Source of the DNA: Methanosphaera sp. BMS
GTDB taxonomy: Archaea > Methanobacteriota > Methanobacteria > Methanobacteriales > Methanobacteriaceae
DNA length: 64,000 bases
Direction: 5' to 3'
Assembly (NCBI RefSeq): GCF_003268005.1
Contig: NZ_CP014213.1
Coordinates: forward strand, 62,001 to 126,000
The position numbers were made by a program, and so were the translations under genes. Below, piece by piece: positions 28,001-64,000 of this stretch. The notes below the pieces were generated by a model. The model was not told the origin of the DNA, made no database searches, and saw only the letters and a list, made by a program, of their open reading frames with translations. Each line of letters starts with the position of its first letter. Positions within the stretch are counted from its first letter, which is position 1.

Positions 28001-31000
28001 TTTAACCTCTTTTACACAGACTCCTTTATTAACTTCCATTGTATATGTTTTAGCACCAATGATCATATAATATGTTCCATCTGCATCAGCTGTTAATGTG
28101 ATTGTTGTAGGATTTCCATAGGTCACATTATCTGCCGTGACGTTGACTGATATTTCCTTAGATGATACTTTAAAGCGTGCAAGTGCATAGCTTGACTTGG
28201 TGGTTGTATTTGCATGATTATCGATTCTTATAATATAATGACCGGGTTTTATATTCTCAACTGTCAGAGTTGATTCAGCATCGGTAATTATTCCTTCTTT
28301 TACGATAATCTCGGGATTGTCTTCATCTAGGATTACATATGTTGCATTGTCAGTCATATTAGTTATCCGGTAGCTTACCTTCAATTCACCAGGATATGTA
28401 GTGTTATCACAGGACAAGATTTTAACTTCACTCGGATTTCTATCATTTGTCTCAAGCTTTAATGTTATAACCTGTTCGTCAAGTTTAAACTTAAGTGTAG
28501 GATTGTCATTTCGTATTAAGACATCAGCACTCATATTATTTCCATCCGCCTTGACGTTGGAATAAGTTACATCATCAATATTTGCTGCATAAAAATCTCC
28601 TGTTGAATGCAATAAATCTCCATTTAAATACAAAACATGGTTAATAATGTAGAAGTAAACATCCACCTTATATGTCTCACCTATGTTAAGACGTTTAGTT
28701 TCATTGACTTTCATACCTATTTTCAAATGATTTTCCGGAGTATGGTCTTCATCATCTGCAGATTCATGGTATTCAACGAGCCTGTCCTTAAAATCAGGAT
28801 CATTTTCTCCAAACCAGCACTGTTCAATTGAGTCATAGTAACCGCTATTGAATACATCCTGACCGCCTCCACAGTGATAATAACTGCTGTGATAGTCTGT
28901 CCTGTTTGCATGATTATAGACAAATGTACAGTATTTTAAATTCAAATTGGCATGTTTTGAATCAAGATATATTGCTCCTCCTCTCTTATAACATTTATTT
29001 TCCTCGAATCTGCAGGATGTGAAATCAACATCACACTCATTGTTGATGTAAACTGCTCCTCCATCACCTGAATTAGCCTTGTTTTTAAGAAATACGGAGT
29101 ATTTAACCGATTTTGTCATAATACCTGTAAATACTGCTCCACCCTTACCTGCGATATTGTTTATGAATGTACATTCATATAAGCCTAGTGGAGCACTTTT
29201 GGAATCGATATATATTCCTCCTCCTCTATCCTTGGCAAGGTTGTCTTCAAAGCTTGAGGATTCAAACTCAGGAGTACACTTATTGTTAATGTATATAGCT
29301 CCTCCATCACCTGAAGTACAGTTATTCTTATTGAATATGGAGTTTAACACCTTATCATTTAGGGTATTTGTATATACTGCACCACCATAATCCTTGGCAG
29401 TATTTGCTGTGAAGTTAGTGTAAATTATTTTTATGTTAGTATCGGCATATACAGCTCCGCCACGATTGTATGCATAATTATTTGAAAAGTCACAACCCGT
29501 CACTGTGATAAATTCATTTGCACGAACTGCACCTCCAAAGCTTTTTGCAGAGGTTTTACCTGTAGCTGCATTATTATTGAATATGGAATTTGAAAGGTCA
29601 ACACTTTTGTCACCATAAACTGCACCACCGTCGACATTTGCTTCATTATCTGTAAAAGTACTGCCTTTTATGTCAATGTATCCATCAGCATAAATTGCAC
29701 CTCCATGGTTATATGCAAAGTTATCTTCAAAGGTGGAATCACGAATAAAAGTACCTATGCCTTTTGAACGAATCGCACCGCCGTAGCTTTTTGCAGATGT
29801 ATCCTTTGTAGCCTTATTTTTCTTGAATGTTGATTCGGTAATATTGACGTATCCTTCAGAATAGATTGCACCACCATCAACCTCTGCTTCATTATTATTG
29901 AATGTACACTCTGATATTTTCAGCTCCGCTTCATCTGAACTTGTCTGATAATAAATTGCTCCACCATACTCGGCTGTATTTTTCTCGAATATGCATGAGA
30001 TGAATATTGGATCATATTTGCTGTCAATATAAACTGCACCACCGTAATCAAGGACATTATTATTTGTAAAATTTGTATTATTAACAACTAAATTACCTGA
30101 TTCGCAATAAATTGCTCCACCATCACCGTAACCGCCACGTGCTTTATTATTTTCAAAAACCGAATTAAGGATGGTAAAGTTTCCTCCAATCTTACCACAA
30201 CATATTGCACCACCGAAATATCCATCTCCGGCTGTATTTTCAATAAATGTTGAATTATTGACAAATAAATTGTTCTCACAATATACTGCACCACCAGATT
30301 TGGGTGCATTATTCTTGTAGAAGTAAGAATTAGTTATATTTAATTCTCCTAGAGTATATATTGCACCACCCGGACCACCAGTATCACCATATAACTTCTC
30401 TGCACTATTTTTAACAAATTCACAGTTTATTATGGTTAACGAACTGGATCTATAAGTATTTGCTATGGCTCCACCACCATCTGATAAACCATTTCCAAAT
30501 ATAATATCTTTAAGAGTTACTGATATGTCCTTTGATGCTATATTAAATATTGGTCCACCATCGCCATCTATACTATAACCATGACCATTTATGGTTATGT
30601 TTTTTGAGATATCAGCATAGCCTGAATAATCCCTATCTAAATCCAACTGACCATCAGCTTCATCAATTAATCTTTGTAAATCATCAGATGAAGCCTTTAC
30701 TGTCTTAGTTTTATTACTGTTAGCCACAATATCATGACTGTTCATCTTTGATGATGAAACATTCTTTGATGTATCAGTACTTGTTTGAATAGTCTTATCT
30801 TCACTTGCGGACTTTCTACTGTTCCTGCTTGATTCTATGTTATCATTACTGTCAGTTTGTGTAATTTGGTCTGTATGTGATATTGTGGATGTTTTTTCCA
30901 CTATTTTTGTTGCTTCATTATCTGTGCTGCCAGCTGAGTCATCTTGTAGTTGTGCAGAACTGACTACGCCCATTAAGAGTATTACCAGCACTAGAAAAAG

Positions 31001-48929: not shown

Positions 48930-50474
48930 TTATATTCCATATAAGCATTGGTAATTATTTTTAAATTTAAATCTTTCAAAGTACTCATTGAATTCACTTT
49001 TATACGGGGTTGCTTTATATTTAATGCACCACGCATACTTAATATGAATCCAACTCATACGTTTAAGTTGATTACCTGTTTCAGGATTAGTAAACAAATA
49101 CTTATCTTTTATCGTTTTATCCCTACATGGTTTAAAGTGTTTACCTTTAATCCACTTATGATACTTCTTAGGATATAATCTCTTAAGAAGACGATTAATA
49201 CGATGTATAATAAACCAATCCATCTTTTCAAAGGTTCTTTTTGCAGCTGTCATTCTCCAATAATAAGCAGTACCAATTATAAGATTATTTAAGGAGTCAA
49301 TGAAACTTTCTATGTCTCCCCCATAAGCTTTTATAAAGATACGCCGTGCTTTATCTTTGAATGAAATAATACTACTCTTTGACGGTTTTGTAAGAACCAC
49401 TTTTCTATTTCTACTGAAATATGATTTAATATTGATTCCTAGAAAATCAAAACCATTATCAATATGAGTAATTCTAGTTTTATCTTCAGCTAATGTTAAG
49501 CCCCTCTTTTTCAAGTAAGAATTTAACAGTTTCGGCACTTTATACGCGTCTTCTTTTGTTCTACAAAGTATTACAAAATCATCAGCATAACGCACCGTAA
49601 CATACTTAGACTTATTACTGTATGTATACGAGCCATCTTTTCTGCGGATACGAGTGTATTTAATATCTAATGCTTCCTCCATTCCATGCAATGCAATGTT
49701 AGCAAGAAGCGGAGATATAATACCCCCTTGAGGTGTACCACTATCAGACTTATAAAATACATTATCGTCTAAGTATCCTGCTTTTAACCAGAGACTAATG
49801 GTTTTAGAGGCTGGAAAATACCGTACTTGTTCCATGATATAATCATGGTCAAGAGTATCAAAACAAGATTTAAAATCACCTTCAAATATCCAAGGACGAT
49901 TAAATCCACGTACATGACTATATATCTTTGCTATAGCATCACTAGCACCTCTACAAGGCCTGAAACCATAACTATTGGCTTCAAAATGATGCTCCCAAAT
50001 AGGTTCCAAGGCAATTTTACATACCATTTGGAACACACGATCACGTATGGTTGGAATACCCAAAGGTCTTAATTTACCATTCTTTTTAGGAATATAAATC
50101 CTACGAACAGGCCGAGGCCTATGTAGATTAATTTTACAATCCTTAAGCTGGTAAAATAGTTTCATACGCTCAGCATTTGTCATGACAATTTCAGAGTCAA
50201 CTCCTGCCGTACGTTTACCACTATTTATTTGAGTAACTACTTTTATAGCCCACAATAGTGTTCTTTTATCATTTAAAAGTAGTCTACAATGACTTCGAAC
50301 TCTTCGATAGTCACCAGATTCTTCAGCACGAATTATCCGCTGTTGTATCTTATATATGCTTCGACTTACATAGTTCCATTTAATATTGGACCATTCACTG
50401 TCGAGTTTGTCCAATTCCGTGGACTGACACAAATTAATATTTGCACAGTTTTCTTCATCTGAAATTTGACTCAT
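48930..50474 (-). CDS. ltrA: Group II intron reverse transcriptase/maturase
   Basis: The 514-residue protein has an N-terminal RT0-like region ([20 protein letters not shown]), the reverse-transcriptase core with [20 protein letters not shown] (246-251) and YADD (296-299), and FDFLGI. A maturase (X/thumb) domain follows. It resembles the chloroplast-like class of intron proteins. No HNH endonuclease motif follows the maturase domain, so target-primed integration would need another primer, for example a replication fork. It should splice and mobilise its own intron. The frame is intact. Confidence 0.9.
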
Positions 50475-51132: not shown

Positions 51133-51783
51133 CTATAATAGTGGACTTTGATTTGCAAAAAGCAGTATTATAATGATAATAATGCTTCCTGGAAATGATG
51201 TTATTTGCAGATAATAATTAAAACCGTCTTTAGCATGAATATCTTTTGGTAGATATTTATTAACGTAATCAGGAAAAATGATTACCAGATGTATATAAAT
51301 TAGCCAAAAAATCCAACAATATTCGGAGTAGGGAATCTTTAATACGAAATAGAAAATCATCAACATAACATTTATAAGATTATATATTAGATTTAAGTAT
51401 GAACAGATATATGGATATCTAAACATATACTGATTATCCTTTTTTTCATCAATGTATTTAAAGAATCTTATTCTATATATTATTCCAATTAAAAAGTATA
51501 TATAATAAATTCCAAACATAAATGATGCAGTTGACAGGTGGTTTTCTCCTATAAATAATTGTATAAACATACCTGAACTAACTAACATTAATGGTGTAAA
51601 CAATGAAAGCAAAAGTGTTAGATAATCATTGTCTTTTGTTTTTCCTTGTTTTAAAAAGATATGAATATTTGTTTTTTTAACAAAATATTCGCTACTTATT
51701 AAATGGTATATTGTGCTAAATAAGATAGTCTCAGTTATAATCATTACAATCCATAGTAATAATATATTCATCATTAAAACCAT
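51133..51783 (-). CDS. Multi-pass membrane protein, partner of cassette 1
   Basis: The 216-residue protein has about six hydrophobic helices and little soluble sequence. It overlaps the upstream large gene by 10 bp (the ATG lies in the last codons, ATGGTTTTAATG), so translation is probably coupled. The protein of cassette 2 at 59705 is its distant counterpart: similar topology and a shared YPY--SY motif, but otherwise very different. The pairing suggests it works with, or protects against, the C-terminal part of the large protein. Its function is not known from any family I recognise. Confidence 0.7.
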   Translation of the reverse strand: MVLMMNILLLWIVMIITETILFSTIYHLISSEYFVKKTNIHIFLKQGKTKDNDYLTLLLSLFTPLMLVSSGMFIQLFIGENHLSTASFMFGIYYIYFLIGIIYRIRFFKYIDEKKDNQYMFRYPYICSYLNLIYNLINVMLMIFYFVLKIPYSEYCWIFWLIYIHLVIIFPDYVNKYLPKDIHAKDGFNYYLQITSFPGSIIIIIILLFANQSPLL

Positions 51784-54700
51784 TCCATTATATTTCTTGA
51801 TCCATTTATATATGGCAGTATATATTCTCTCGCTTCTTGTGTTTTAATCTGATTTTCAACAAAAGTTAACAGTTCTTCTTGAAGTTTATCGTAAATATTT
51901 ATCATAACTTTAGTAGCATATTCTATTTTTCCGGGTTTATCTAAAACTTTTGTGGCTTTTGCTAATTTAAATGAATTAATAACATGTTTTGAAATGGCAG
52001 TTTGTGGTAAATAAGATAAAGTTAAACTAAGAACTGTATTAAATAATCGTGTAATATTTGTTGTATCTGCTAACCAACCATTAGCATCAATAATTAATCC
52101 TGTTCCAACAATAAACATAATACATCCTGTAATTACTCCAGCATCTCCATCAATTATACTACTACCAAATAGTCCTCGACTTCCATCAATGGCTAAACTT
52201 CCCATTTCATCTTCAATGATAGCTTCAGAACTATCAATATCATATCCCAATAGATTTTTTGTTTTATCTGTATAACCAAAACACAATCCATCTTCAAAGC
52301 ATACATATACCGTTGATTTTAGCATATTTTTTCCATAGTTTCTATAATTTTCTGAATCATCCATTTTATCTGTAATTGATCCAATATATTCAAAACCATT
52401 AACTAACATGACCGACCAAATAATTGAGTGATTAAGATCATATGTAATGGATATATTGTTAGTTCTATTAGAAATTATAGAAATAATTTTTGTTATATTA
52501 TTAAATGAATATTTGATATTTGAATCTATATTCAGTATTCCAAATAATTCCTCTATTGCAGTTGAAGCACAATTATATCTTATATTATCCAAGCTGAATT
52601 TTGCATGTTCATAACTATGTAATGATAATTCCATATTAAATAATTTTAAATTTGAAGTATCATCTATACTCATGCCTAATAATGGATCTGTAAAATGAAT
52701 GTAATTCATTCTATCATTTTCAATTCCTGCCATGCATAAAACTTCATTTGTCAAGATACATGTTGAATTTAATTTTTTAGATATATACTCAGCATTTTTA
52801 TGAGTTAATGTTATAGTGGTCATTGCTTCTAGAATTGTTCTATATTGTGGAGTAATTATTGAAATTGATAAATTCTCATATAACTCCTCTATATTTGATA
52901 TTGATTGGTTTAATGTGGATATTGTTATTATTTCATTTGTAATTAAAAATGTTTGTAGTATATCATATTGTCCACATCCATCGACATCTCTAGGTTTAAA
53001 AGTCAATGTTTCATTTTTAATAATTATATTTGAATTAGTTTTAAATGTAGTTTCTATAGACCCGTTAGAACATAGTTTTTTCTTTAAATCAATAAAACAC
53101 TGTAAGGTATAATTTGAGTATAAATATATTCTTTCATATTTTCTTACCAATGATTTGTATACTAAATTAACATAATCCATTTCACCATATACTTTTTCAT
53201 AAAATGTTATGTCAAGAGTATCTGATTTATGTATAACTATACCTTCTTGATTAACTATGTTCAAATCACTATGTGATACAGTTTCATTTTTAAAACTAAA
53301 AAATACATAATTATTCAAATTAGGATTATACATATGATATGTATATGTTTTCTCTGATACAGAAGTAAAAGAGATTTCTTCATATTGGGATACATTTAAG
53401 AATCGTACAACATATTGATAATTCATAACAGTTTTAGACCCATTTATTGGATTGTACTCGATTGTCTTGGAATATTTGTCATTATATTGTGTGTATATTT
53501 CTATTTTAGTATTGGTATCTGTTGTGTAGCTTCCGTAGTTGTTTAGTGTTTCTGTTGGTGCTTGTGTCTGGTTATACTTTGTTATGTTGAATTTACCTGG
53601 CTGGTTGGATTGTATGATTATTTTCTGCTGTCCATTGCTCCAGATGTTACTTGCATTCATGACTGTTATGGTTGGTCGCTCATCCGGGTGCTGTACCGGC
53701 GTGTAATTGAATACTTTTGATTTATATAATTGTATGTCATCCTGTGTGTAGTATTTGAGTCGTGTGTTTTTGTTTAGGTATATTTTATCATTGTTTTTTG
53801 CTGTTTTTACTGTTGTACTATTGTTTGGATTTGTACCATCTGTTGTATAGTATACTGTGCAGTTTAGTTTGTTTATGCTGAATTGTATTCTTTGTTTGTT
53901 GTTTTCCAGTGTTGTTAGTGGTCTTATTGCTGTTATTGGTGGTGTCATTACCTTGGGTGGCTGGTAGAATGTTACATCGGATGTGAATCCTTCATTATCC
54001 ACCAGTATTGCTCTTACCTGTGTTTTTATGGATATCATTACCTTGGTGTTGTTAGTCCACGTGTTACTGCTGGTATTGGGTGTTGATCCGTTTCGTGTAT
54101 AGTAGATGGTACCTGCCTTGTTTATTTTTACAGTTATGTTTTGATAGTTGTCACGTACATCGGTAATGTTTTTGATTGTAACCACGGGTTTAACTGCATT
54201 CATACGGTAGCTGTAAACGTTGCTGGTTATTGAGCCGTATACTGATATGAATCGTAGGTCGGTATAGTTGTTTATGTTTATGGGTGCATTATATTTGGTA
54301 CTCTTGGTGGTGGGTATGCTGCCGTTGATTGTATAGTATATGCTTGTTGTGGGCAATGTGTATGAAATGTATACTTGTTGTGCCTGATTTGTTATTGGTG
54401 TTTTGTATACTATGTATGGTGTTGAACCTTCACTAAGCTTCATTGATAGCACTGCACCGCATTCGCCGTTGGCCTTAACTGCAAAGTACTTCAAAGTCTT
54501 ACTTGTATCATAAACAAATGCCTTGGTGTATTTTGTGCTACTGGTTGTTGGATTAGCACCATTTAAAGTATAATAAACACTACAGTTGTTCACACCACTA
54601 AAAGTAGCATTATAAGTAGTGGACGTGAGTTTGCTTAGCACCACCTTTACACTTAAAGCTGTGGTGGTGTTACTTACAATAGCATCGGTATCTCCACTTC

Positions 54701-55016
54701 CCCTGTCATTGTTGGGGGTACCTCTAGTGGAATCTGTGGATTTGTCATCTTCGACAAATTCCTCCTCATCCTCATCACTGGTATCGTTTAATTCTATTAT
54801 TTCAGAATTTTCAAATCCATCCTCAAAATTATTATCGGGAATAACTTCCACATTATTCATATATTTATCCATATCCTGTTTTACATTATTATCGTAATTT
54901 GCATTTGCAGTAGTACCCATGTCATTATCATTTGATTGGCTGACATCCATAGCACATGCTACACTAATGCAAGAGAGAATAACAAATAAAAACAAGATTA
55001 TCTTCTTATAATTAAT
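51774..55016 (-). CDS. Large secreted chitobiase-C-repeat protein, cassette 1
   Basis: I extend the start to an ATT at 55016: AGGAGG lies 9 nt before it, and the added residues (NYKKIILFLFVILSCISVAC) complete a signal peptide that the formal TTG start (54995) cuts in half. The protein of about 1080 residues has an acidic linker. Five repeats of about 80 residues follow (125-522) of the chitobiase C-terminal/FN3-like type (YYTLNGANPTTSSTKY motifs). A central domain holds CGQYDILQTFL and NDRMNYIHFTDPLLGM. The C-terminus (from about 955) has a hydrophobic Gly-rich segment and helices. Residues 1-530 match the paralogue closely; the rest diverges. Confidence 0.8.
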   Translation of the reverse strand: MNYKKIILFLFVILSCISVACAMDVSQSNDNDMGTTANANYDNNVKQDMDKYMNNVEVIPDNNFEDGFENSEIIELNDTSDEDEEEFVEDDKSTDSTRGTPNNDRGSGDTDAIVSNTTTALSVKVVLSKLTSTTYNATFSGVNNCSVYYTLNGANPTTSSTKYTKAFVYDTSKTLKYFAVKANGECGAVLSMKLSEGSTPYIVYKTPITNQAQQVYISYTLPTTSIYYTINGSIPTTKSTKYNAPININNYTDLRFISVYGSITSNVYSYRMNAVKPVVTIKNITDVRDNYQNITVKINKAGTIYYTRNGSTPNTSSNTWTNNTKVMISIKTQVRAILVDNEGFTSDVTFYQPPKVMTPPITAIRPLTTLENNKQRIQFSINKLNCTVYYTTDGTNPNNSTTVKTAKNNDKIYLNKNTRLKYYTQDDIQLYKSKVFNYTPVQHPDERPTITVMNASNIWSNGQQKIIIQSNQPGKFNITKYNQTQAPTETLNNYGSYTTDTNTKIEIYTQYNDKYSKTIEYNPINGSKTVMNYQYVVRFLNVSQYEEISFTSVSEKTYTYHMYNPNLNNYVFFSFKNETVSHSDLNIVNQEGIVIHKSDTLDITFYEKVYGEMDYVNLVYKSLVRKYERIYLYSNYTLQCFIDLKKKLCSNGSIETTFKTNSNIIIKNETLTFKPRDVDGCGQYDILQTFLITNEIITISTLNQSISNIEELYENLSISIITPQYRTILEAMTTITLTHKNAEYISKKLNSTCILTNEVLCMAGIENDRMNYIHFTDPLLGMSIDDTSNLKLFNMELSLHSYEHAKFSLDNIRYNCASTAIEELFGILNIDSNIKYSFNNITKIISIISNRTNNISITYDLNHSIIWSVMLVNGFEYIGSITDKMDDSENYRNYGKNMLKSTVYVCFEDGLCFGYTDKTKNLLGYDIDSSEAIIEDEMGSLAIDGSRGLFGSSIIDGDAGVITGCIMFIVGTGLIIDANGWLADTTNITRLFNTVLSLTLSYLPQTAISKHVINSFKLAKATKVLDKPGKIEYATKVMINIYDKLQEELLTFVENQIKTQEAREYILPYINGSRNIMEWF

Positions 55017-55176
55017 AAATATTAGCCTCCTATTTTTTTTCTTTTATTGATTAATTATAATTAATCATGTTATTTTGCTGTTAATTATATAACTCAACTT
55101 AAAATTCATTATATCAAAAATGATTAACAACATTAAAAATTTTGTCTCAGCTTATTAATAAACATTACCTTTTTAA
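53422..55176 (-). repeat. Duplicated 5' half of the cassette, copy 1
   Basis: This 1.75-kb stretch (leader plus first ~530 codons) matches 62134-63898 very closely by eye. Similarity falls sharply inside the gene after the fifth repeat and is interrupted upstream only by the IS at 55177. Confidence 0.75.
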
Positions 55177-59085: not shown

Positions 59086-59704
59086 TGGTTTTTTTATGGC
59101 TGTGTGGTAAATAGATAAGAATTGATTTTTTTTATTGATTTTTAGAATTAGATGATTATGCCTCTAATATAATTATCAATATATATTTTGCATTTGCAGA
59201 TGAACGTTCTGTCAGAATTAATTATGAACTCCTTTAACTTCTTTTTTCCTCTTCATAGTTGTTGATAATAATTGCTTTGTTGATTGTAAAATTTATATCT
59301 TTTTATTTTATGTATTAATTTCAGGTAAATTTATCATAATTTGGTAAAATTATGGGATTATAATTGGTAAAATGTTGGGAATGAAATTGGTAAAATGTTG
59401 GGAATGAAATTGGTAAAATTATGGGATTATAATTGGTAAAATGTTGGCATTGGATTTGGTATACTGTTAATATTCATTTTTTTCTTCTTCGCTATACCTG
59501 ACTATAACGAAGAAAAATATTATTATTATTTTTTGAATATATTAAAATCATAGATAAAAGAGGAATCGTTTACACATCCTATTAATATTTATCTGAATCA
59601 CCTAAATTCCAATTAGTATCGTTAATTTATATAACTATTATTATGATGTTACAACGTTAGTAATCAGGTTAACTGTTAATCTAAGTATCATCAATAATTA
59701 ATTT
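59086..59704. other. Intergenic region containing a 23-bp tandem repeat
   Basis: No gene is seen. The central part holds the tandem repeat listed separately; the rest is A+T-rich spacer downstream of cassette 2. Confidence 0.5.
59339..59468. repeat. 23-bp tandem repeat, five units plus a partial
   Basis: Five head-to-tail units of exactly 23 bp start at 59339, 59362, 59385, 59408 and 59431, all opening AATTGGTAAAAT. They come in two versions: one continues TATGGGATTAT, the other GTTGGGAATGA, in the order A-B-B-A-B'. A decayed sixth unit (ATTTGGTATACTG) follows. Units contain in-frame stops and are not coding. There are no spacers, so it is not a CRISPR array. Confidence 0.9.
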
Positions 59705-60490
59705 TTAAAATGTCAAGTGTCTAATTCCACTAGCCATTAAAAAAGCCATTGCAGATAATGTAAACATTACTAGTATGTATTGTATATAAATTTTCAAATC
59801 CATTTTTCTTTTATCTAATAAGTTAAGATTAAAATATTTGTCTATCTTATCAATAAAAATATGATAATTTAACCGGAATAGTATATAAATTAACAGTTTA
59901 ACCGCATAGATATTATCTGTAGCAAAAACAGGCAGTAATATGAATGAAGATTCTATTAAAAATAACCTATTGAAGAAAATCATGTAAGTTATATAACTAT
60001 GTTTATATGGATATTTGCTATTCATCAAATCAATGGTCTTATCAAACTTGTAACGTAGATAAATCATGATTGAATTATAAATCCATAATAATAATGTTGT
60101 AACAACAACCAAAAACATGACATTATTATGAAAAATAACAAGAACCGGCCATGTCAATAACAATAAATATAATGGAATCACGATTCCTTGTTCTATTAAA
60201 CGACCTTTTTCATTTAATATTGTAATATTACCCATTTTATCCACATGATAAAAGCGGTTTAACATCTTAACCCCGTTGTTTTTTATAATTATCAATTTAT
60301 TCTTTTTATCATTTTCAGATAAATTATTTGCACATTCCTTTAAATAATCTAAGGATACGATAAAATAACATTTATTATTTCTATTGAATATACTCAGTTT
60401 ATAAATTTTATCATAAATCAAAACAGATAAGATAAAAATTATAATCAAATTCCCAAAAATTATAAAGCCATAGTTCAATTTTAATCCCAT
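59705..60490 (-). CDS. Multi-pass membrane protein, partner of cassette 2
   Basis: The 261-residue protein has one N-terminal helix, a charged loop of about 65 residues, then about five more hydrophobic helices. It overlaps the large gene by exactly 10 bp (ATGGGATTAA), the same arrangement as in cassette 1. It shares only a general topology and a YPYKHSY-type motif with the 216-residue partner there. Translational coupling is likely. No family is recognised. Confidence 0.7.
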   Translation of the reverse strand: MGLKLNYGFIIFGNLIIIFILSVLIYDKIYKLSIFNRNNKCYFIVSLDYLKECANNLSENDKKNKLIIIKNNGVKMLNRFYHVDKMGNITILNEKGRLIEQGIVIPLYLLLLTWPVLVIFHNNVMFLVVVTTLLLWIYNSIMIYLRYKFDKTIDLMNSKYPYKHSYITYMIFFNRLFLIESSFILLPVFATDNIYAVKLLIYILFRLNYHIFIDKIDKYFNLNLLDKRKMDLKIYIQYILVMFTLSAMAFLMASGIRHLTF

Positions 60491-63400
60491 CCCATAAAGT
60501 CACTTACTTGTTCATAAATCGGCTTTTCAATCAATTTATCTCTAACATAGTTAATGCATTCTTCAGAAGCAATTTTCATACCCATTAAAAAATTATTTAT
60601 CTCATAGGAAGTTTCAATTACCAATGAAGATGTAACGTACTCTTTTGTCATTAATTTAAATCCTTCTTCCATAGCTTTATAAGTTATTTTAGAAATGCCC
60701 ATACCAATACCCAACATAGCTGTATCAATGCCTAAACCTATCCAATCACTTTCGTTAGCTAAACCAGAAAAAATACCATGAGAATCCACAATCAACAAAT
60801 AACCACCCACTATAAGAGCACCTGCCACAAAAGCAGGAGCACATGATATCGTTATTACTCCTGTTGCGATTCCAACTCCAACTGTAATTACTACTGAACC
60901 TGCAAAAGATTCAACATCTGCCCATCCACTATCTGTTGTAAAACCAAAAAAAGAACATGCTTTATTGCTAGTATTCTCAAAACAATTTTCTTCAAAACAT
61001 TCCATTGTTGATGATTTCTTAATATTTTTCAAATTTTCTGTTTCATTTTCCTCTATTAATGGTTCTGATATTGCCCCGTTATATTTAAATCCATTTAGAA
61101 TTATTATACACTCTACGATTCCAGTATCATCATGTTTTAGTAAGTATATATCATGCATATTATTTGCATATATTTTTAGTGTGTCTGTCTGATTGTTAAA
61201 TGTAGCTATTATTTTGGTGCTTTTATTTAAATCCATTATTATGGATTGTGCTGATTTACCTAGATTTTCTTTTATTAAATTTAATGATATTCTTGCTATT
61301 TCAGGTAATCTTGTCGTTGATTGTAAATTAAATAAATATTTATTTGTAGCATTTCCTGTCATTACAAGTCCCATTTTTAAATCATTATATTGTATGTAAT
61401 TAACTCTGTCATAGTTTATTCCAACAATGATTAATGTTTCATCACTTCTAATGGCTGTTAGATTATATGCGTATGTCAGATAATTTGCATATTGATCAGC
61501 TTGCCATAATGTCATTACAGCCGTTAATATTGTTCTGTCTTGGGGATATGTTCTAATTAGATTACTTGGTATGTTTCCATATGTACGATATGTGCTTAGA
61601 TAGGTTAATGTTTGGTTTGTGTATTCATTTGTTATTATATTATTAGTTAATAAGTATGTTTGTAAAACATCATAATCTCCACAGTTATATGTGAACTTTG
61701 ATTTATATGTTATTGTTTCTTTTTTTGTGAATGTATTGGATAATGTTTTGAATATCGTGGTTATATTTTCGTTATTATTATTTTTCTTCTCCCAGTAAAT
61801 ATCAAATAGTCTTGTATAATTTGAATAAAGATATACCCGTTCAGTTTTTTCAAATAGAGCATTTGCTGTAAATATAGCATTAACTGTATTTATATCACCA
61901 TACATTTTGTCTTGGAATATTATTTCTAAGTTATTGCCTTTATGTATCCAAACACCAGCCATATGGGGATTATAATTGCTTTCATAACTTATTTGATAAT
62001 TGTTAAAATTTATGAAGATGTAATTATCCAATGCAATATCATCCATATAAATTGATTCGGAATTCCAATTTCTTATTAAAAAAATCCTATTATACTGACT
62101 GACTTTACTTAACTTAATTGTATAATTATAATTCATAATAGTTTTAGACCCATTTTCTGGATTGTACTCGATTGTCTTGGAGTATTTGTCATTATATTGT
62201 GTGTATATTTCTATTTTAGTATTGGTATCTGTTGTGTAGCTTCCGTAGTTGTTTAGTGTTTCTGTTGGTGCTTGTGTCTGGTTGTATTTTGTTATGTTGA
62301 ATTTTCCCGGCTGATTGGATTGTATGATTATTTTCTGCTGTCCATTGCTCCAGATGTTACTAGCATTCATGATTGTGATTGATGGTCGCTCGTCCGGGTG
62401 CTGTACAGGTGTGAAATTGAATACTTTTGATTCGTAAAGCTGAATATCATCCTTTGTATAGTATTTTAGTCGCGTGTTTTTATTTAGATATATTTTATCA
62501 TTGTTTTTAGCAGTTTTTACTGTAGTGCTATTTTTTGGATTTGTACCATCTGTTGTATAGTATACTGTGCAGTTTAGTTTGTTGGTACTGAATTGTATTC
62601 TTTGTTTGTTGTTTTCCAGTGTTGTCAGTGGTCTTATTGCTGTTATTGGTGGTGTAATTACTTTTTTTGGTTGGTATACTACTAAATCGGATGTGAATCC
62701 TTCATTATCCACTAATATTGCTCTTACCTGTGTTTTTATGGATATCATTACCTTGGTGTTGTTAGTCCATGTGTTACTGTTTGTATTTGGTATTGATCCG
62801 TTTCGTGTATAGTAGATTGTACCTGCCTTATTTATTTTTACCGTTATGTTCTGGTAGTTGTCACGTACATCAGTAATGTTTTTAATTGTAACCACAGGTT
62901 TAACCGCATTCATCCTATAACTATAGACGTTGCTGGTTATTGAGCCGTATACTGATATGAATCTAAGATTTGTATTGTTGTTTATTTCTATTGGTGCAGA
63001 ATACTTGGTGCTGCTGGTTGTTGGCGTGCTGCCATCGGTTGTATAGTATATGCTGGTTGTAGGCAATGTGTATGAAATGTATACCTGTTGCTTTTTGTTA
63101 GCGATTGGTGTTTTATATACTATGTATGGTGTTGAACCTTCACTAAGCTTCATGGATAGCACTGCACCATATTCGCCGTTTGCTTTAACGGCAAAGTACT
63201 TTAAAGTCTTACTTGTATCATAAACAAATGCCTTTGTGTATTTTGTGCTACTAGTTGTTGGATTAGCACCATTTAAAGTATAATAAACAGTACAGTTGTT
63301 CACACCACTAAAAGTAGTATTATATGTGGTGGATGTGAGTTTGCTTAGCACTACCTTTACACTTAAAGCCGTGGTGGTGTTACTTACAATAGCCTGTGTA

Positions 63401-63729
63401 TCTCCACTTCCTCTGTTATTAGGACAGTTACGTCTAGTGGAATCTGTGGATTTGTCATCTTCGACTAATTCCTCCTCATCATCATCAATAGTAGTATCGT
63501 TTAATTCTATAATTTCAGAATTTTCAAATCCATCCTCAAAATTATTATCGGGAATAACTTCCACATTATTAATATATTTATCCAGATTCTGTTTTATATT
63601 ATTATCGTAATTTGCAATTGCAGTAGTGCTTATGTTATTATCATTTGATTGGCTGACATCCACTGCACATACTACACTAATACAAGAAAGAATAACAAAT
63701 AAAAACAAGATTATTTTTTTGTAATTAAT
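60481..63729 (-). CDS. Large secreted chitobiase-C-repeat protein, cassette 2
   Basis: The start is placed at ATT 63729 for the same reason as in cassette 1: AGGAGG at 9 nt and a complete signal peptide, with the three differences between the copies in this stretch all silent. The protein of about 1082 residues has five chitobiase-C-like repeats (126-526), then a diverged central domain that still keeps YLYSNYT, CGDYDVLQTYL, RTILTAVMT and NYDRVNYIQYND. The C-terminus (from about 938) has long Gly/Ala/Val-rich hydrophobic segments (VVITVGVGIATGVITI, AGALIVGGYLLIV) and then helices. This end differs from cassette 1. The secretion signal and repeats place it at the cell surface. Confidence 0.8.
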   Translation of the reverse strand: MNYKKIILFLFVILSCISVVCAVDVSQSNDNNISTTAIANYDNNIKQNLDKYINNVEVIPDNNFEDGFENSEIIELNDTTIDDDEEELVEDDKSTDSTRRNCPNNRGSGDTQAIVSNTTTALSVKVVLSKLTSTTYNTTFSGVNNCTVYYTLNGANPTTSSTKYTKAFVYDTSKTLKYFAVKANGEYGAVLSMKLSEGSTPYIVYKTPIANKKQQVYISYTLPTTSIYYTTDGSTPTTSSTKYSAPIEINNNTNLRFISVYGSITSNVYSYRMNAVKPVVTIKNITDVRDNYQNITVKINKAGTIYYTRNGSIPNTNSNTWTNNTKVMISIKTQVRAILVDNEGFTSDLVVYQPKKVITPPITAIRPLTTLENNKQRIQFSTNKLNCTVYYTTDGTNPKNSTTVKTAKNNDKIYLNKNTRLKYYTKDDIQLYESKVFNFTPVQHPDERPSITIMNASNIWSNGQQKIIIQSNQPGKFNITKYNQTQAPTETLNNYGSYTTDTNTKIEIYTQYNDKYSKTIEYNPENGSKTIMNYNYTIKLSKVSQYNRIFLIRNWNSESIYMDDIALDNYIFINFNNYQISYESNYNPHMAGVWIHKGNNLEIIFQDKMYGDINTVNAIFTANALFEKTERVYLYSNYTRLFDIYWEKKNNNNENITTIFKTLSNTFTKKETITYKSKFTYNCGDYDVLQTYLLTNNIITNEYTNQTLTYLSTYRTYGNIPSNLIRTYPQDRTILTAVMTLWQADQYANYLTYAYNLTAIRSDETLIIVGINYDRVNYIQYNDLKMGLVMTGNATNKYLFNLQSTTRLPEIARISLNLIKENLGKSAQSIIMDLNKSTKIIATFNNQTDTLKIYANNMHDIYLLKHDDTGIVECIIILNGFKYNGAISEPLIEENETENLKNIKKSSTMECFEENCFENTSNKACSFFGFTTDSGWADVESFAGSVVITVGVGIATGVITISCAPAFVAGALIVGGYLLIVDSHGIFSGLANESDWIGLGIDTAMLGIGMGISKITYKAMEEGFKLMTKEYVTSSLVIETSYEINNFLMGMKIASEECINYVRDKLIEKPIYEQVSDFMGWD

Positions 63730-63898
63730 AAATATTAGCCTCCTATTTTTTTTCTTTTATCGATTAATAAATAGTTAATCAAGTTATTTTGCTGTTAATT
63801 ACATAACTCAACTTAAAATTCGTTATATCAAAAATGATTAACAACATTAAACATTTTGTCTTAACTTATTAATAAAGATTACCTTTTTAATAAAAAAT
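62134..63898 (-). repeat. Duplicated 5' half of the cassette, copy 2
   Basis: Counterpart of 53422-55176 without the IS. It includes the leader with AGGAGG, the uninterrupted CCTTTTTAA target (near 63883-63891) and the first ~530 codons. Confidence 0.75.
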
Positions 63899-64000
63899 GA
63901 CACTTTTAAAAAATTGTGGAGGAGGGGGTTTTTAGAGATATATAAGTATACTTAACTGCTAAAACAATTCCAAACATTACTGTGAGTATAATAAGGTAAC
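63730..64000. other. Leader of cassette 2 and window end
   Basis: Holds the AGGAGG site (about 63739-63744) and the long A+T-rich leader also found upstream of cassette 1. A GTGGAGGAGGGGG block at about 63917-63929 recurs as GTGGTGGAGGGG beyond the IS in cassette 1. No gene is seen to the window edge. Confidence 0.5.

Follow-up and report, generated by a model that had tools for sequence, protein, structure and literature searches.

Two large paralogous surface-protein genes in the window (the whole stretch of DNA analysed, 64,000 nucleotides from a gut methanogen) very probably start at AUU, 9 nt past an AGGAGG Shine-Dalgarno (SD) sequence, as part of a habit that runs through the genus Methanosphaera. 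The observations are these: the position of the AUU; its conservation; coding constraint downstream of it; and its exchange with AUG or UUG in homologues. The two genes, here called cassette genes, and their neighbors are arranged as follows.

55026..55031, minus strand: Shine-Dalgarno sequence AGGAGG of cassette gene 1; its GGAGG is invariant in 8/8 copies
55014..55016, minus strand: AUU proposed as the start of cassette gene 1, at 9-nt spacing from AGGAGG
51774..55016, minus strand: cassette gene 1, 1080 aa from the AUU; signal peptide plus CHB_HEX_C_1/Fn3_assoc repeats
51133..51783, minus strand: gene for a hydrophobic (membrane-type) protein of 216 aa, overlapping the end of cassette gene 1
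63739..63744, minus strand: Shine-Dalgarno sequence AGGAGG of cassette gene 2
63727..63729, minus strand: AUU proposed as the start of cassette gene 2, at 9-nt spacing from AGGAGG
60481..63729, minus strand: cassette gene 2, paralogous to gene 1; 1082 aa counted from the AUU
59705..60490, minus strand: gene for a hydrophobic (membrane-type) protein of 261 aa, overlapping the end of cassette gene 2

Both cassette products carry chitobiase-C-terminal-like (CHB_HEX_C_1) and Fn3_assoc repeats, in four stretches each, behind an amino terminus that is signal-like by hydropathy. A Sec-type signal peptide followed by repeat domains is the arrangement of methanogen adhesin-like surface proteins. The C-terminal half of cassette gene 1 is variable, and neither the variable C-terminal halves of the cassette proteins nor the 216-aa and 261-aa membrane-type proteins gave a Pfam match above threshold.

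On the minus strand, copy 1 reads AGGAGG, the spacer CTAATATTT, then ATT AAT TAT AAG AAG ATA ATC TTG, with the TTG at 54995; copy 2 reads AGGAGG, the same spacer, then ATT AAT TAC AAA AAA ATA ATC TTG, with the TTG at 63708. The sequence-only reading had placed the ATT and TTG of both genes at these coordinates, behind an AGGAGG, and the placement holds. It was also right that, in both copies, the TTG splits the signal peptide and sits 30 nt from AGGAGG, with the ATT at 9 nt; that no ATG, GTG or TTG occurs in frame between the upstream TAA and the TTG (16 codons in both copies); and that the copies differ from each other at three positions (TAT/TAC, AAG/AAA, AAG/AAA), each time silently. Among 84 ORFs of this genome, the spacing from GGAGG to ATG has its mode at 7-8 nt and falls mostly at 5-12, with 11 cases at 9 and none at 3. 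An AUU at 9 nt therefore fits, whereas an AUA at 3 nt or a TTG at 30 nt does not.

Additional paralogues sharpen the case for translation upstream of the TTG. The 2.87-Mb single-contig genome (G000) holds five cassette copies, and a second Methanosphaera species (G013) holds three, one of them truncated at 128 aa. The block GGAGG-CTAATATTT-ATT is identical in all eight, although two copy pairs common to the two genomes are 96-99.8% identical and so not independent. Across the six codons from ATT to TTG, the variable sites rise from the three first seen to five, and 5/5 are third-position and synonymous; were the stretch untranslated, an all-silent outcome would have a probability of about 4e-4, a rough figure from a simple model with transition bias. 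The earlier claim that this stretch is translated is supported, since its codons are under coding constraint.

A gene caller that accepts only ATG, GTG and TTG would put the start at the TTG (54995/63708). This reading, which treats everything upstream as an untranslated leader, is disfavored by spacing and by the silent substitutions, and is very improbable. TTG is a normal start in this genome (28/189 canonical strong-SD starts), and a short hydrophobic signal peptide, MFLFVILSCISVACA, could follow it. However, the positively charged n-region would be lost, and homologues place a TTG at the ATT codon, not at the equivalent of 54995/63708.

Those homologues are more distant and come from another Methanosphaera species, G006. 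One (C20) reads GGAGG-TTAACTTTTT-TTG-AAG-TAT-AAT and another (C24) GGAGG-ACAAATATA-TTG-AAT-TAT-AAG; in both the TTG aligns with the ATT of the cassette genes, at nearly equal spacing from the SD. In C20 an in-frame TAA directly after GGAGG forbids any start before the TTG. A third (C4) reads AAGGAGAGAATACC-ATT-AAG-ATA and has no canonical start for 19 codons. C20 also bears on a start at AUA (55022/63735), 3 nt after AGGAGG, which would add Phe-Ile in front of the product. That codon is in frame, the TTT and ATT that follow it are also invariant among the copies, and AUA is the likely start of LonB in Methanosphaera; yet a 3-nt spacing is found in 0/84 GGAGG-ATG pairs, and C20 has its stop codon at about this position and its TTG at the ATT codon. 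A start at AUA is very improbable. The cassette genes, then, display the marks of a near-cognate start at the AUU: no canonical alternative before the TTG, suitable SD spacing, coding constraint, and accepted start codons at the aligned position in homologues.

It is extremely improbable that the cassette genes have instead lost their start codon and persist as silent or decaying copies. Such decay would accord with the truncated G013 copy and with an in-frame stop in the C-terminal half of 2/5 paralogues, but SD, spacer and ATT are the same in all copies, and the same codon class occurs in unrelated housekeeping genes. Moreover, over the first 500 codons of the cassette copies dN/dS is 0.06-0.16 with dS up to 1.4, indicating that the genes are maintained. 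The paralogues with stops are L006 (G000, ~2246-2249 kb) and L008 (G000, ~371-374 kb), where a related copy reads on; both may be in decay toward the 3' end.

The cassette as a whole looks polymorphic (window 51133-55016 and 59705-63729; L006, L007, L008, L043 and L044). Between copies, the first ~500 residues are 73-98% identical and the C-terminal half drops to ~20-50%. Three architectures are seen, each with a different hydrophobic membrane-type protein gene following the cassette gene and the ends overlapping, an organization reminiscent of toxin/immunity or antigen-swap cassettes. A 4.44-kb stretch with cassette 2 (window ~59500-63930) is 99.75% identical to L043 (G013:C174), whereas the QueE-like protein of G013 is only 81% identical to that of the window genome; this contrast suggests recent horizontal transfer. 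Between the two cassettes of the window are ORFs for IS66-like transposases. A scan of viral contigs found no relatives. Two of the cassettes have a reverse-transcriptase-like ORF of 514 aa about 1.3 kb downstream, its N-terminus nearly identical in both places:

Window, 48930-50474: reverse-transcriptase-like ORF
L008, 6752-8297 (reverse-complement coordinates): reverse-transcriptase-like ORF

Starts of the same class (AUH: AUU, AUC or AUA) also appear in conserved genes, where they can be compared codon by codon across 20 Methanosphaera genomes. For a QueE-like radical SAM enzyme the start is ATT in 14 and ATC in 4, with ACG or ATA in G017 and ATG in G016; assignment is ambiguous in G009 and G010, where an in-frame ATG lies just upstream of the SD, and in G017. 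In the family's other genera, 17/17 relatives that were read carry ATG at the aligned codon: their ATG AAA GCT CCA ATT ATT GAA aligns with ATT AAC TCT AAA ATT ATT GAA. In several species the ATT directly follows the upstream stop codon, and in G000 no canonical start follows for 40 codons, by which point all three cysteines of the radical-SAM CNIDCKYC segment have been passed. The G017 gene (L118) has ACG as its aligned codon, 8 nt after AGGAGG, and an ATA two codons upstream; this could be an ACG start or an assembly problem.

The LonB protease gene was likewise read in all 20 Methanosphaera genomes. Its start falls at one SD-anchored position, mostly 7-8 nt after GGAGG: ATA in 10, ATT in 6, TTG in 2 and ATG in 2. 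Of the relatives in other genera, 16 were readable, and every one has ATG there. An exchange of four codons at a single site whose distance from the SD hardly varies points to a start codon with relaxed constraint on its third position. In conserved Methanosphaera genes, ATG, TTG, ATT, ATA and ATC exchange at one fixed SD-anchored codon, and the presence of AUH at the start of housekeeping genes suggests that this lineage uses such starts routinely. G016, the most divergent Methanosphaera, has ATG in both the QueE-like gene and LonB, which suggests, from two genes, that the AUH habit arose after the G016 lineage split.

How common are such starts? A survey of 1.26 Mb of G000 sought ORFs that have a strong SD but lack a normally spaced canonical start; stretches of 0.4 Mb were also taken from G014 and from G074, a control that belongs to a different genus of the family. 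Strong-SD genes in the G000 stretch comprised 154 with ATG, 28 with TTG, 7 with GTG and 12 with AUH, the last from ~7 independent families. The further AUH cases in G000, mostly at exactly 7 nt from the SD, are:

G000 706773: surface protein, ATT
G000 648524: surface protein, ATA
G000 1425508: surface protein, ATT
G000 2379070: surface protein, ATT; weaker SD, at 8 nt
G000 613178: AzlC, ATC; match to the AzlC model below its curated cut-off
G000 2269191: QueE-like radical SAM enzyme, ATC; match to the QueE model below its curated cut-off
G000 2561322: LonB (TIGR00764), ATA

An AUH codon occupied the right slot in 7/14 independent non-canonical ORFs, against ~0.15-0.25 expected (P ~0.002-0.04, with independence judged by eye). 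Taken alone, this SD-based enrichment is modest and suggestive only. The AzlC start is ambiguous in G005, G006, G011 and G015, and an in-frame ATG lies just upstream of its SD in G006 and G011. Reciprocal comparison of orthologue starts by BLAST yielded too few pairs (8-14) to be informative.

Several candidates were discarded. A G014 acetolactate synthase with ATT at 29510 dropped out, since 9 codons further along it has a normal ATG behind a weak SD; ATC at 327345, ATC at 293163 and ATT at 730629 were set aside for an ATG two codons later; and the G074 ATT at 804023 was excluded by an out-of-frame ATG between it and the SD. A TetR-like ORF with GGAGG (G000 365134, plus strand) has its only well-placed ATG out of frame, before A runs, and may carry a frameshift or sequencing error. 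A similar survey of the 0.4 Mb of G074 turned up AUH candidates, one or two in number; outside Methanosphaera the trait may thus exist too, though less frequently. One of these, a surface-protein ORF at 872248 (minus strand), has ATA 7 nt after GGGGGTGA with an intact signal peptide behind it, and hints that AUH starts may occur outside the genus.

The sequence-only reading had proposed initiation at AUU and called it rare. The first part stands, supported by the homologue TTG at the ATT codon; the second does not hold for Methanosphaera, where AUH starts are not rare. Most likely, the AUU would be brought into the P site by the strong Shine-Dalgarno sequence and read there by the ordinary initiator Met-tRNA, whose CAU anticodon would tolerate the third-position mismatch. 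The product would then begin Met-Asn-Tyr-Lys-Lys and continue into an uninterrupted signal peptide. The third position of the start codon would have drifted in Methanosphaera, such that AUU, AUC and AUA serve as inherited starts in several genes, including LonB and the QueE-like gene.

Compared with their relatives, the Methanosphaera aIF1 sequences (gene at G000:777915) and initiator tRNA, the latter ordinary, presented nothing distinctive to explain tolerance of AUH. The C-terminal basic tail of some relatives' aIF1 is missing in Methanosphaera, and likewise in an order-level relative (G045). In other archaea aIF1 is reported to discriminate against non-canonical start codons (PMC6237735), and by analogy a lower output from AUH is to be expected. 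Initiation at the AUU, insertion of methionine there and an output below that from AUG are inferred; the AUU presumably limits expression of the cassette genes. A regulatory role for AUH starts is a matter of conjecture.

Non-canonical start codons as such are known in bacteria: infC, encoding IF3, and other genes start at AUU behind a Shine-Dalgarno sequence, the CAU anticodon being mismatched at the third position. The cassette genes share the AUU and its SD with infC, but the host is an archaeon, with aIF1 in place of IF3; no initiation factor is among the products of the AUH genes, which are surface proteins, a protease and metabolic enzymes; and AUU, AUC and AUA interchange between Methanosphaera species at one position. 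Autoregulation of the infC type does not apply, because the cassette genes encode surface proteins and aIF1 is a separate gene.

In Streptomyces, the GTC start codon of sigR is repressed through IF3 and regulates output (PMC5472188). That too is a non-canonical start in an important gene; however, sigR is one bacterial gene with a known regulator, whereas Methanosphaera presents several genes across an archaeal genus, known from sequence. A review describes archaeal initiation as SD-led, with initiator Met-tRNA, aIF1, aIF1A and aIF2, and gives AUG, GUG and UUG as start codons; its text, searched for AUU, had no hit (PMC7531240). Methanosphaera initiation would likewise be SD-led, but with AUU among its starts. 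Belinky (2017) likewise aligned related genomes to compare their start codons, and counted one AUG-to-AUU switch among 61,358 ancestral AUG starts, relying on pipelines that rarely call AUH (PMC5622118); in Methanosphaera, by contrast, AUH is found in 18/20 and 16/20 species for two conserved genes, QueE-like and LonB, respectively. The literature searched, which covered few subscription papers, contained nothing relevant on AUU (ATT) starts in archaea or in Methanosphaera.

Together, these results make it fairly probable that a lineage-specific rule operates in Methanosphaera, in which a strong SD leaves the start codon's third position free. AUH starts would then be routine and inherited, heading a few percent of SD-led genes, LonB and the QueE-like gene included; gene callers would miss or truncate such genes; and the starts may set low expression, possibly via aIF1.

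Archaeal starts are taken to be AUG, GUG or UUG, and gene finders are built on that assumption. Here, AUH starts appear fixed genus-wide in a protease and a metabolic gene, permitting codon-by-codon comparison with relatives that start at AUG. These genes offer a natural setting for studying how start codons are judged by aIF1 and initiator tRNA in archaea. By implication, genes in Methanosphaera, and perhaps throughout the family, would have been annotated too short or called pseudogenes.
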